Assembly: GCA_021234155.1 (NCBI GenBank)
Contig: JAJEKV010000039.1
Coordinates: 13,279,156 to 13,343,155, forward strand
Length of the DNA: 64,000 bases
Direction: 5' to 3'
Origin: Isoetes taiwanensis
Lineage: Eukaryota > Streptophyta > Lycopodiopsida > Isoetales > Isoetaceae
The notes under the pieces were generated by a model, which made no database searches, was not told the DNA's origin, and was given only the letters and a program-made list of their open reading frames with translations. Position 1 is the first letter of the stretch, and each line of letters opens with the position of its first letter. This document shows, in pieces, positions 46,268-54,106 of this stretch. Both the position numbers and the translations under genes were made by a program.

Positions 46268-47562
46268 TTATCTGGGATCTTTCTTAATTAAACTAGCTAA
46301 TTGCATGTCTTTCCTCATGAGGGTTACTCGCTTCGCATGAACAGTGCAAGCTGTCGAGTCTTCAAAATGTTGCACTATCCTCTGCTCAGCCGCTTCCTGC
46401 AGTGCCAGCAGCATCTCATCTGTGACCCTCATGTCGGTCCTAAAATCCTGCATTACTTCTCGGACCAAACGAGCAAAGGGGGCACGGGGGATTAGGAGGC
46501 CGTAGCTGCGCTGGAAGTGCCTAATCAGTGCTCTTCTCTCCACCTCCTTCCTGTCGACTTTCTTCTTGGCTGGCTTCTTGGGGGCCTTGGGCTTTGGTGG
46601 TGGCGGCTTTAAGGTCTGCTGTTTCGTTGGGCGTCCTCCCTCGATAAACCTGACCTTGTTCTCCTCATAGTACTTGTTGTACGCCTCCCACTCCTTCATG
46701 TATGCATCGTGCTCCCTCTTCTTCCTCTCATAGATCTTGACACGGTCCGTGACGTAGGCCTCTTGGGCAGGCCGTGGTTGCTTCTTCCTGTCCCACTTCG
46801 GATAAGGAGGGGGCTTCTGCACTTGGTCCTGCTGTTCCGGGTCGGGCTGCTCTTGATTAGGTGTTGGCTGCTCGTCACCCGGGAACTTCGAAGAACTTCC
46901 ACCTCCGGTGTTGGGGATGTAGTCTTCGTCGGAGGAGTCGTCGGAGGGGTTCGGGGGCTGGTCGGCTGGCCGCTCGTTGATGACGACCTTGGGGTTGGGC
47001 TTCCTTCTTGGTGGAACGTCCTTGAGCTTCCTTGGGCCCTCCACGAATTTCCCCTTTGCCTTCTTCTTCTCCTGGGCCGCTTTCGCCTCTTCTTCCCTCT
47101 TCCTCTTCCTGCTTTCCCGGCGCCGTTGTTTCTTCTCGTGTTTTGCAATCCATGCCGCGAGGTCTTTTTCTTCGCTTGGGTCGATCCTTGGCCCGCTGTG
47201 CTCTTGCCGCTCCTTTGTCCTCCTTTCCCGATGTGCTTCCTCCTCTTCGTCTTCGAGGACCTCTGTTGCTGCATCAGAGTGGTCCTCTTTCCCTTCCTGC
47301 TCTTGAATTTCCCGCTCTATCTCCTCGTAGACTTCCCTTGTCTCCTCGTCCATGGAGGTTGGTGATGAGGCCTCGCCTTGATCCACCTAACGATTGAAAA
47401 CGCCAATCGCATCGGATGTATCTTGATCTTCCTGATGTCCTCCTCGCTCGGCTTAACGACCCCCTCGCGAGCCTCTCCACGGCATCCCCGACAAGGTTGG
47501 CGTCAGGGCGCCGGTGGCTTCGCCGGACGAGGGCTTCCCCGGCACCGCTTGGTCCGTGCCAT
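46268..47562 (-). CDS. Element A linker-expanded histone H3-like protein
   Basis: The intact frame 47353-46268 (361 aa from ATG 47353) has a glutamate/lysine-rich, probably coiled N-terminal half, a proline/lysine-rich linker (KPPPPKPKAPKKPAKKK), and a complete histone H3 fold at its C-terminus. It runs from ALIRHFQRSYGLLIPRAPFA through ALQEAAEQRIVQHFEDS to CTVHAKRVTLMRKDMQLASL, colinear with H3 without gaps. About half of fold positions match H3 as I recall it. Just upstream, in another frame, an ATG at 47562 begins MARTKRCRGSPRPAKPP, echoing the H3 tail. A stop and a frame change separate the two, so this copy may use 47353 or be damaged. The predicted role is to pair with H4 in chromatin; that is inference. 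Confidence 0.85.
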
Positions 47563-47770
47563 GTTTGACGGCTCGTCGATCGGATATCAGCCAAAAAGAT
47601 CGCCTAAGTGGGAGAGCCGGATTTCTAGGGCGGAACGCAAAATGAGTGGGGGGTCTACATCTATTTATAGCTTGGGGAATTTTAGGTCAAAATCTAAGTT
47701 GCTCTATTTAACGTGCCAAGGCACTTATTTACTTAAAACATACACTTATTTCAGAGATTTTTAATTATTG

Positions 47771-47837
47771 GTCTCACAGGTAGCGCCTCGTTCAAAAACT
47801 AGAGTTTAGTTTTTAGACCAGGCGCGACGTGTGAGAT
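47771..47837. repeat. Element A hairpin 3 (67 bp)
   Basis: GTCTCACAGGTAGCGCCTCG ... GCGACGTGTGAGAT, in the leader between the 5' LTR and the H3-like gene. The next copy is 192 bp away. Confidence 0.85.
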
Positions 47838-47962
47838 CTTACACATTTGTAACTAGTTTAAGTGATTTAAACATACTATTCTAACTGATTCTTACCTTGG
47901 AACTCGCCTTACCATATTACTTTGGTGAAATTATCAAGATTTAAGGTTTTTCTTGGCTCAAT

Positions 47963-48029
47963 GTCTCACAGGTAGCGCCTCATCCAAAAACTAAAATGCA
48001 GTTCTTTGACCAGGCGCGAGCTGTGAGAC
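47963..48029. repeat. Element A hairpin 4 (67 bp)
   Basis: GTCTCACAGGTAGCGCCTCA ... GCGAGCTGTGAGAC. It is the copy closest to the 5' LTR. Confidence 0.85.
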
Positions 48030-48217
48030 CACCTTGCCTGGGGAGTGTTTGGCTCATTCTTTTTAGTCTTATTAAGTTCCAGTTCACTTAATTGTTACTA
48101 GCTTAGCATAAACTACAAAAATGAGAAAAAAAAAATTTTCCCACTTTTCGAGGCTTGAGGATCCTATCAAGTTAGTACTACTGGGAGCATGGTCAGTGCT
48201 TTGCTCTTGGTCTCCAA

Positions 48218-48235
48218 GAACATTGCTCGATACCA
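48218..48235 (-). promoter_or_regulatory. Primer-binding site of element A
   Basis: On the sense strand, TGGTATCGAGCAATG follows the 5' LTR after one base. It matches the initiator-methionine tRNA type site TGGTATCAGAGC with one base lost. Element B has the unaltered form, which supports the reading. Confidence 0.8.
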
Positions 48236-48236
48236 C

Positions 48237-52006: not shown

Positions 52007-52245
52007 CTAAGATGGTGAGAGCAATTTAGGTGAAGGGAAAATGGCTAATGAGGCTCCCTTTTATAGACTAGGGTTGCCTCGGCTTCCGTGCACAAGGGTT
52101 CTTGATAGAACAGACCTTTGTTCTAAGCTTATGGATCTCCAAATAAGGTACCATGAAGTGCAAATCTAAGCAAAACGAGGCAAGAAACACTACATGGCAG
52201 TTTGTTGGGTCAAATTTGGATAATCCTGGTCAAAATGGGTCAACT

Positions 52246-52310
52246 CGAGTGGGTTCGCGCGAAAGGGGTCTGCGTCGCGAACGCAGAGGCGTTTGGCGCG
52301 GACTCACCCG
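52246..52310. repeat. Element B hairpin 1
   Basis: GTGGGTTCGCGCGAAAGG pairs with CGTTTGGCGCGGACTCACC, and the inner TCTGCGT/ACGCAGA closes the stem on a CGCGA loop. The next copy lies 201 bp away. Confidence 0.85.
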
Positions 52311-52447
52311 GTTGGGCCGATTTCTAAGAAAACTAAACTTTTCTAGGGGTTGTAAGATGCTAACATGCCTATTTGGATCAATTCTAACCTAGTTAGCAAC
52401 TTACTTCATGGTAATTGGACATCTAGAAGTGTTATTTCAAGGCAACT

Positions 52448-52510
52448 AGGTGGGTTCGCGCGAAACGGGCCTAAGTCGCGAACGCAGAGGCGTTTGGCGC
52501 GGACTCACCC
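52448..52510. repeat. Element B hairpin 2
   Basis: Same arms as hairpin 1 (GGTGGGTTCGCGCGAAACGG ... GCGTTTGGCGCGGACTCACC). The inner arm has CTAAGT, which weakens the tip. Confidence 0.85.
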
Positions 52511-52646
52511 AGTTCAGCCGATTTTTGCTACTTTTGGATGTTTTTGACCAAAATTAACTTCTAAACTAGATTCCTAGGCAGATTCTAAGCATTTTACTAT
52601 CTTTTTTCACAAAATTTGGACCAATTTGCCCCAAATTGAGGATACT

Positions 52647-52713
52647 CGGGTGGGTTCGCGCGAAACGGGCCTGCGTCGCGAACGCAGAGGCGTTTGGCGT
52701 GGACTCACCCGGG
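52647..52713. repeat. Element B hairpin 3
   Basis: The most complete stem of the three, with CGGGTGGGTTCGCGCGAAAC and its partner GTTTGGCGTGGACTCACCCG. It lies 200 bp from hairpin 2, in the spacer just after the H3-like gene. Confidence 0.85.
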
Positions 52714-52946
52714 TCGGCCAATTTGAGCCAAATTTGGATTCTTATGCTAAAATTTTATGCTAATTAGACAATTCTAAGCATTCTAATTATGATACAAGGA
52801 ATTATACTCACAATTGATTCATACAAGAGTACTATTATATCAAAGAAGAGGTTTAATTTACAGAGAAAATTGACTTTTATAACTAGTAATTAGAATATAC
52901 AGGGGAAAAACTTATATATTTATAAGGTTTACAAAATTGGAGGTGT

Positions 52947-54106
52947 TTAGGGCCTCTCTTTACGGATCCTCCTCGCCAGATGCAGGTCCTTCGATATCAC
53001 CGTCACCCGCTTGACGTGGATTGCGCAGAGGTTGCCTTCCTCGAAGAGCTGGACCAGCTCTGCCTCTGATGCCTCCTGCAGGGCCCGGACCATCAAGGGT
53101 GTCACTCTGTAGTTTGTCCTGAACTCCTGCATAATCTCCCGAAGGAGCCGCTCGAACGACGCCTTCTTGATGAGGAGATTATTGCACTGTTGGAAGTGCA
53201 TAATCTCCCGAAAAACTCGGGCATGCCTTGAATTAGGTCCATGGTGGACCTTCTTCGGCGGCTCCGGTCTTGGTGGTAGCGGCTTGGGCTGGTTCTTCGT
53301 CTGCCCACCCTTAACGTACTTTTGTACGTTTTGCTTGCAGTACCAATCATTGTACCTCTTCCACCGGCGGAGGTTTGGTACACCTTTTTACGACGCTGGA
53401 ATTCATGATCTTGTTTTAACATGAATTCCCACTCGCCCACCTTCTGCTTCTTTATCACCTTCGGTGGCTTGGGCCACTTCGGGTATGGTGGGCGAGCATC
53501 TGGGTTTGAGGGTTCCTCAGCATCTCCTTCGGGCTCTTCTTCCGTATGCCCGGCTGCTTCACTCTCCTTCTCTTCCTCTTCTTCCTCCTCCTCATCGGTG
53601 GGGTCCTGACGAGGTTCTTCAATATGGACCGTCCCCCTTGGACGGTCCTGGTCCCTTTTGGACCTCTTCTCCCTCCTTCTTGCTTCTTTCTCCCTCTCCC
53701 TCTTCTTTCTCGTGGCCCTCTCCTCTGGCCATTCAGTCACCTTCTCCTTGCCTTTCTTCTTTTTGGAGGTGCCAACCTCCTCCTGGTGTGGCTACTGCTG
53801 CTGCTGCTCTTGTTGTTGCTGTTGCTCTTGGTCCTGCTGCGGCTGCTGGTGCTCTTGCTCCTCCTCCTGATCGGACAGAGGACCGAAGTGGATGGTCTCG
53901 TCCATCCGCTGCGTCTCCACGGAGGAGCTGCTCTGGGCCTCCTCCTGGGAGGCGTGGAAGGTCTCGTCCGTAGAGCTGGACGGCTCCTCCTCCCTTCTCG
54001 GCCGAAGATGCTCGGGGATCTTCTTCCCTGGACCTGCTGCTGCTTCTGCCATTGAGGGTGTGCGCCTTGGGCTAAACTTCCTTGCAGTGCATTTGGTCCT
54101 CGCCAT
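52947..54106 (-). pseudogene. Element B linker-expanded histone H3-like protein (stop and frameshift)
   Basis: The frame starting at ATG 54106 reads MARTKCTARKFSPRRTPS, matching eight of the first nine residues of the mature H3 tail, including lysines 4 and 9. A glutamate/glutamine-rich stretch ends in TAG at 53789. The same frame resumes with a lysine/arginine-rich and acidic linker to about 53380, where it shifts. The last piece (53201-52947 and just upstream) is a full H3 fold: NLLIKKASFERLLREIMQEF, RALQEASEAELVQLFEEGN, LCAIHVKRVTVISKDLHLAR and RIRKERP. By eye about 60% of fold positions equal canonical H3, and loop 1 has H3 length, unlike most centromeric H3. The long linker between tail and fold is absent from real H3. 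Two lesions make this copy a pseudogene. Confidence 0.88.

Follow-up and report, generated by a model that had tools for sequence, protein, structure and literature searches.

Can a plant retrotransposon carry a histone H3 gene of its own and keep it for use? This question is raised by a stretch of 64,000 nucleotides from Isoetes taiwanensis (contig JAJEKV010000039.1, positions 13,279,156 to 13,343,155 of the forward strand; in the following, the window). Two diverged long terminal repeat (LTR) retrotransposons in this window, A and B, encode upstream of gag a protein that ends in an H3 fold. A lineage of Ty3/gypsy chromoviruses very probably took up a host H3 gene and retained it in first position behind the 5' LTR. 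This conclusion is carried by the homology of the fold, the anatomy of the elements, their copy number and a low ratio of nonsynonymous to synonymous substitutions (dN/dS) in the copies that keep the gene.

H3 fold, linker and tail of elements A and B

The Pfam Histone profile (PF00125, cut-off 26.4 bits) matched residues 257-365 of the open frame of A with 6.7e-26 and 91.4 bits in a profile search, and the fold of B with 7.8e-24 and 84.7 bits. H3.3 from the PDB matched the A frame at 8.8e-24, the C-terminal fold being aligned gap-free, and loop 1 is of H3 length in both proteins, without a gap in the alignment to H3. Both folds are H3-type histone folds, and their closest relative is H3. The structure predicted for A, built on 20 sequences, resembles nucleosomal H3 in the PDB, e.g. 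7y5w_C (1.3 Å over 74 columns). The core helices of this model (residues 301-314, 323-350 and 358-368) reach a predicted local distance difference test score (pLDDT) of ~85-92, the preceding helix 53-67. An earlier account of this DNA, made from its letters alone (the sequence-only reading), had placed an H3 fold with a loop 1 of H3 length at 47562-46268 in A and at 54106-52947 in B, and had named a profile search without a significant H3 hit as grounds for abandoning it; these coordinates are right, and the hits are significant in both elements. A third H3 was not found in the window by a scan of all six frames, in stop-to-stop pieces of at least 20 amino acids, with a profile that has A and B among its members.

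The two folds are 47% identical to each other and each is 50-54% identical to plant H3. Residues C110, H113, R116, K122, D123, L126 and I130 are common to A and B, as are R69, R72, R83 and the run K115, R116, V117, T118. Among them, C110, H113, R116, D123 and L126 are contact residues between H3 and H3 and between H3 and H4. R63, L65, F84 and Q85 are changed in both elements.

Both genes open with an H3 tail, which the sequence-only reading had not mentioned. The gene of A starts at 47562 with MARTKRC..., that of B at 54106 with MARTKCTARK (MARTKCTARKFSPRR...). These starts are the only two matches to the pattern ATG-A-R-T-K in the 64 kb, where 0.04 would be expected, and two matches were reached in one of 100 shuffles. 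The product is composed of three parts: a nine-residue H3 tail, a charged linker of ~290-340 residues and the H3 fold. The tail-to-fold distance was taken from 12 uninterrupted A-like frames of 400-444 amino acids and bears out the greatly expanded linker that had been proposed. Both window copies of the gene are interrupted, A by a tail that is not in frame with the remainder and B by one internal stop and one frame change. The A frame described earlier has 361 amino acids from the first ATG and 372 codons when an alternative start is used. The two copies had also been described as strongly different. This is true of the folds, whereas the linkers are related, with PPYPKW at the corresponding site in A and B, and the elements are colinear.

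The features of both elements are as follows.

Element A
49815-49819, minus strand: target-site duplication GCATG, partner at 27629-27633, from the flank sequences
48237-49814, minus strand: 5' LTR (TGTGACGT...), 1585-column alignment with the 3' LTR, 2.3% substitutions
48225-48235, minus strand: primer binding site TGGTATC-GAGC, adjoining the 5' LTR
47548-47562, minus strand: ATG-A-R-T-K with which the H3 gene begins, not in frame with the remainder
46268-47386, minus strand: open frame encoding the linker and the H3 fold (372 codons when read from an alternative start)
46280-46534, minus strand: H3 histone fold (profile, PDB match, predicted structure)
45117-45593, minus strand: open reading frame (ORF) 2, no Pfam match; present in two A-like copies, counterpart in B at 51670-51545
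44026-44421, minus strand: ORF3, no Pfam match above the cut-off; present in two A-like copies, counterpart in B at 50791-50239
42887-43629, minus strand: gag region, frame broken, colinear with gag of B
41453-41785, minus strand: N-terminal part of the reverse transcriptase (RT)
32508-41453 (limits approximate), no strand assigned: nested insertion of ~9 kb that splits the RT of A, with inverted ends CACACT.ACCCC...
30181-32508, minus strand: remaining RT, RNase H and integrase (Pfam profiles)
30084-30269, minus strand: integrase chromodomain (PF00385, 5.3e-10), in a frame that differs from that of the integrase in this copy
27634-29206, minus strand: 3' LTR (...ACGTCACA), aligned with the 5' LTR

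Element B
54635-54646, minus strand: primer binding site TGGTATCAGAGC
53740-54106, minus strand: H3 tail MARTKCTARK and first part of the linker, with an internal stop
52947-53204, minus strand: H3 histone fold (PF00125, 7.8e-24)
51506-52006, minus strand: ORF2
50239-50791, minus strand: ORF3, in pieces, similar to that of A
26860-27542, minus strand: gag, past the nested A (PF03732, 1.7e-06)

Element A is an LTR retrotransposon, with paired LTRs, a target-site duplication, a primer site and gag-pol, and the chromodomain after its integrase, which is also found in another copy (L061), makes it a chromovirus. Across 1539 aligned sites, its LTR pair shows 27 transitions and 8 transversions (96.4% identity counting gaps). 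The primer site is of a type that we take to be that of initiator tRNA-Met. The coding order is H3, ORF2, ORF3, gag, RT, RNase H, integrase and chromodomain. A was inserted within B, a nesting that had not been noticed before: H3, ORF2 and ORF3 of B lie at 54106-50239, and its gag resumes at 27542-26860. The leader after the primer site of B resembles that of A, and the similarity between A and B, at the protein level in the genes, runs in the same order through primer-site leader, H3 fold, ORF2 and ORF3, followed by the colinear gag. None of 50 codon-shuffled controls gave an A-B similarity match. An LTR pair of B was sought within the window and not found.

The ~9-kb insertion contains a large tandem array at ~38.3-40.1 kb, the units of which recur inverted at 36.0-36.5 kb. 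Adjoining gag of B, a frame with an NLI-interacting-factor/FCP1-like phosphatase domain (26230-26871, minus strand; PF03031, 2.2e-10) is perhaps another captured host gene.

Copies and constraint across the genome

A search of the Isoetes taiwanensis assembly (1,658,258,908 bases, 1110 contigs) with the A protein as query revealed at least 110 A-like copies, scored from 24,159 first-look candidates; the 134 matches scored comprise these 110 and 24 short N-terminal pieces that were set aside. At least 150 B-like copies were obtained from 9721 candidates with the B fold as query. By hand count, 65 of the 110 A-like copies listed have no stop inside the match. Among 30 A-like loci, A included, the primer site was recognized in 27, upstream similarity to the LTR in 25 and a frame uninterrupted from tail start through fold, of 400-444 amino acids, in 12. 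When stretches of 9.9 kb were analyzed, the A-like copy L060 showed the order H3-ORF2-ORF3-gag-RT-pol, L061 the same order plus the chromodomain, and the B-like copy L062 H3-gag-RT-pol, so that H3 lies upstream of gag and pol in all three. Two other A-like copies contain ORF2 and ORF3 with 87-91% identity to those of A. No match to either was obtained in L062 at E 1e-4, and there is scant room between its H3 and gag.

The sequence-only reading had proposed a search for further copies and would have given way to a fold confined to these two copies beside an independently inserted host H3 pseudogene. The abundance of copies contradicts this. A host H3 pseudogene inserted twice is ruled out by the colinearity of A and B together with the copies found genome-wide, H3 lying upstream of gag-pol in the three stretches analyzed.

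The tail was recovered as well. A start of the form [MI]A.TK is present upstream in 29 of the 30 A-like loci, exactly ARTKQTARK in 21 of them, and in 16 of 20 B-like loci (B included), exactly ARTKCTARK in seven, with TKCT in 14. A further set of 20 lower-ranked A-like copies showed the start in 18, exactly ARTKQTARK in eight. Typical tails are ARTKQTARK in A-like and ARTKCTARK in B-like elements. Identity to the H3 tail stops after residue 9, and S10 onward is replaced; at position 10, most A-like tails have P or R (26 of 29) and most B-like tails Y or F (13 of 16). K4 occurs in all 29 A-like and all 16 B-like tails, but is demanded by the start pattern itself, and K9 in 26 and 14 of them, respectively. 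R2 is replaced by Q, H or C in some element tails, as would be expected from the decay of methylated CpG. An A-like sub-lineage (L074, L076, L078, L080 and L082) carries ARTKQTARV, with V at the K9 position and K4 kept.

Substitutions among the copies point to purifying selection that is stronger on the fold than on the linker. Pooled dN/dS was 0.105 for the fold and 0.186 for the linker in the 30 A-like copies, 0.080 for the fold in the 20 B-like copies, and 0.070 and 0.163 for fold and linker in the lower-ranked A-like set. Synonymous change may be inflated by CpG decay, and transversions alone were therefore compared as well, as the ratio of position 2 to fourfold third positions. This ratio was 0.32 for the A fold, 0.48 for the A linker and 0.04 for the B fold, and in the lower-ranked A-like set 0.19 for the fold and 0.42 for the linker. 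Between A and B themselves, a pair taken from the sequence-only reading and not via similarity ranking, the folds have 58 differing third positions out of 81, alongside 28 first and 19 second positions. The ratio of nonsynonymous to synonymous differences per site (pN/pS) of this pair is 0.34, with synonymous sites nearly saturated; shuffled codon pairs average 0.96. These values suggest that the elements keep the H3 protein for use and support the selection within an element lineage that had been supposed earlier, with the caveat of the leader-chosen copies described below.

Several observations weigh against this interpretation. Protein similarity was the basis on which the copy sets for dN/dS were picked, and this favours conserved copies. 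A stop in the fold occurs in one of 30 A-like, four of 20 B-like and two of the 20 lower-ranked A-like copies, the latter including three with an uninterrupted frame (scripted count). The leader differs by 0.162 per site among copies and the third positions of the fold by 0.293; the neutral rate is therefore uncertain, and the leader is no simple neutral yardstick. A search based on the leader yielded 40 scored copies, A included, 18 of which adjoin an H3 of the A-like list by coordinate comparison. From the 22 copies outside the top H3 list, 12 were sampled. All 12 contain H3 segments and nine a tail-like start, but they are mostly frame-broken and show no deficit in the transversion ratio, with a dN/dS of 0.29 and a transversion ratio of 1.16 for the fold (linker 0.39 and 1.10), as counted from short ungapped blocks of codons that are partly misframed. 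This indicates that many copies decay and that the constraint sits in the lineages retaining the gene. The protein itself has also departed from H3: DNA-contact residues are retained at 8 of 13 positions in A and 8 of 13 in B, core hydrophobic residues are identical to H3 at 11 of 19 positions in A and 15 of 19 in B, and R129 is replaced by L in A. Finally, the lower-ranked A-like tails contain K9 in only 10 of 18 cases and V at position 9 in seven of 18.

Origin of the element H3

A single uptake from canonical host H3, before the split of A and B, is favoured by the sequence comparison, although not proven. At 24 sites where A and B both depart from H3, the same residue is found at 10, compared with 1.9 expected, and stretches of the types REIRHFQ, APF and RTDYRVT are common to most aligned A-like and B-like copies. 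With P0007, an H3 protein of 345 amino acids, A agrees at 12 of 24 sites of joint departure. Two more divergent H3s agree with A at 8 of 25 and 8 of 23 sites, which indicates that part of the shared departures is due to convergence. A tree with further copies, in which the A-like rows L021 and L038 were irregularly cut, grouped A-like and B-like copies with P0007 and P0012, separate from plant CENH3. The support for this group is moderate (84/87) and that for A and B alone 42/16, values that count against the main reading. Separate captures in A and B are opposed by the shared derived residues; the tree support alone is insufficient to exclude them.

It appears rather improbable that the source was the centromeric variant CENH3 and that the protein may go to centromeres. 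The motifs HFQ, LLIPxAPF, LLALQEAAE and VTLMRKD in A are reminiscent of plant CENH3, and A is about as identical to a grass CENH3-like protein (46/80) as to H3 (45/81). Likewise, grouping A and B with plant CENH3 in one clade was not rejected by the approximately unbiased test (p-AU 0.445 in a smaller and 0.0875 in a larger set of sequences). However, A and B fall outside plant CENH3 in the best trees, and forcing A-like and B-like copies onto it costs 4.9 log units in the larger set. Alignment scores favour H3 (222 versus at most 213 for A, 246 versus at most 203 for B), and the tail ARTKQTARK is that of H3 itself. Like the element proteins, CENH3/CENP-A has a divergent H3 fold and a replaced N-terminal tail, but loop 1 is longer in the CENH3 compared, and in A and B it has the canonical length and lacks the tryptophan of Arabidopsis and grass CENH3. 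The alignment of this loop shows gaps against the four centromeric proteins displayed and none against H3, the longer loop of CENH3 type being absent; the centromeric set comprised five sequences, three of them entered by hand (three of the four aligned in loop 1).

Possible roles, parallels and related proteins

Among the readings of its role, chromatin entry combined with an anti-silencing step is tentatively placed first. The element H3 would pair with host H4 and enter nucleosomes or an (H3-H4)2 complex on element DNA, where its minimal H3 tail would be displayed at the end of a long tether. As an outcome, silencing of the element might be blunted, or tail-binding proteins might be recruited or occupied. 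ARTK is the ligand of many tail readers. Since S10 and the tail past residue 9 are replaced, the usual sites of marks such as those of K27 and K36 would be missing. Readings based on K9 only are weakened by the recount of position 9; the ranking was left as it was, since the argument rests on K4 and the fold.

The second choice, which is more doubtful, is a decoy that stays outside chromatin, free or H4-bound, and titrates host enzymes and readers such as methyltransferases, demethylases and H3 chaperones, thereby shielding the element. The retention of the tail for about residues 1-9 only, the long charged linker and the alterations of R63, L65, F84 and Q85 in A and B would suit such a decoy, and the separate P0051 group described below keeps the same stretch of tail, with D or N for S10 in 100 of 107 proteins. 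However, most of the H3-H3 contacts checked and 8 of 13 DNA contacts are retained, the fold is more constrained than the linker, which a tail decoy would not need, and K9 is absent from part of the A-like copies. The absence of K9 also argues against the third choice, judged unlikely, in which the element H3 in chromatin is an address for the element's own integrase chromodomain and steers new copies to element-rich chromatin. An H3 tail and a chromodomain do coexist in one element (A and L061), A is nested in B, and some chromovirus chromodomains bind H3K9me and target integration (PMC3350952). Nesting is common anyway, though, and the A chromodomain with its YLVKWKHLP looks like group II. 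Chromodomains of this group are described as lacking the aromatic Y24 and usually Y48 (PMC3350952), and their mechanisms as not yet known (PMC12786077).

A nucleocapsid-like function of the histone, as a coat or compacting agent for element RNA or complementary DNA in the particle or nucleus, is improbable. The position of its gene upstream of gag and the core histones of giant viruses (PMC11500106) would agree with packaging, but the exact H3 N-terminus would be left unexplained. Least probable is a passenger, i.e. a host H3 that was copied by chance and is decaying without a role. Captured gene fragments are known from plant LTR elements (PMC7264820), both window copies are broken and the leader-chosen copies mostly so. 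Against this stand the identical location of the gene in two subfamilies with 47% identical folds, hundreds of copies, 12 of 30 frames uninterrupted from the tail, dN/dS values of 0.07-0.11 and the A-B pN/pS of 0.34 at nearly saturated synonymous sites.

H3 marks are the main route of plant retrotransposon silencing. An H3 of its own would provide an element with a counter-move at the nucleosome level, as in the reading of chromatin entry, or with a new integration address. The copies may be regarded as natural experiments in which the H3 tail is kept for about residues 1-9, S10 is replaced, some DNA contacts are changed and many pairing residues are kept. In addition, annotation may mistake H3 genes borne by elements for host histone variants.

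The sequence-only reading knew of no LTR retrotransposon described with an H3, and this stands within the open-licence PMC literature, in which no LTR retrotransposon encoding a core histone was found, although this is not proof. With plant chromoviruses the elements share LTRs, a primer site of tRNA-Met type, gag, RT, RNase H, integrase and chromodomain; they differ in what separates the 5' LTR from gag, namely the H3 gene and, in A, two further ORFs. Ogre elements carry an ORF1 upstream of gag, and a bracovirus encodes H4. The word 'histone' occurs 0 times in the main text of the Isoetes taiwanensis genome paper (PMC8566536). As in plant LTR retrotransposons with additional ORFs, a sense-strand accessory gene is retained across copies, but those reviewed lie mostly between pol and 3' LTR, unlike the H3 described here, and the available text of that review has 0 occurrences of 'histone' (PMC7264820). 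The nearest precedent is an orchid Ty3/gypsy lineage with an AlkB demethylase, likewise an accessory domain acting on host control, which is an RNA demethylase and not a building block of chromatin (PMC12786077). Core histones are also encoded by the viral genomes of Medusavirus, which is reported to have all four, and Melbournevirus (PMC11500106, PMC9396995); these are DNA viruses and not retroelements.

Long H3 proteins were also detected in protein searches, the first of which covered the 7992 candidates ranked highest by shared words. Those of the source 'ena' include P0051, whose residues 1-262 (tail and linker, fold excluded) matched 1365 clusters as a query. The 120 clusters of this group that were listed are all 'ena' and comprise 880 sequences, with a Histone domain in 98 of 120 (hand count). 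Among 107 of its proteins with a KQT start, K9 and K14 are present in all, K4 to T6 being fixed by the filter, and S10 is replaced by D in 67 and by N in 33, possibly a phospho-mimic beside the invariant K9. R2 and R8 are replaced mainly by Q, C or W, again as would be expected from the decay of methylated CpG. DNA-contact residues are retained at 13 of 13 positions in each of four members checked. The linker is unlike that of A and B, and the structure model of P0051 is of low confidence. Copy number and decay suggest that this group is a mobile family. It is conceivable, and no more than tentatively proposed, that the histone-bearing chromoviruses (A, B and their kin P0007 and P0012) and the P0051 group, probably independently, each retained an H3 with a tail reduced to ARTKxTAR(K) and hundreds of residues away from the fold, and that variant nucleosomes built by plant retroelements serve as a general weapon against, or an exploit of, histone-based silencing.

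More long H3 proteins with differing N-terminal extensions are P0090/P0094, P0112/P0114 and P0087; a stretch KKLHW..E.IREY in P0112/P0114 resembles the P0051 domain by eye. The linker of A matched none of 3314 candidates from the protein database at E 0.01, and contig scans revealed no relatives in viral contigs. A scan of genome contigs gave nine loci with similarity confined to the H3 part, presumably ordinary eukaryotic H3 within bacterial bins.

The window gave no matches in Rfam and tRNA scans. Its other recognizable frames are the following.

501-1592, minus strand: plant ROH1-like host frame (PF05633, 3.6e-17)
20487-21014, minus strand: copia-type RT (PF07727)
55943-58972, plus strand: frames like those of long interspersed nuclear elements (LINE), the last with zf-RVT (PF13966)

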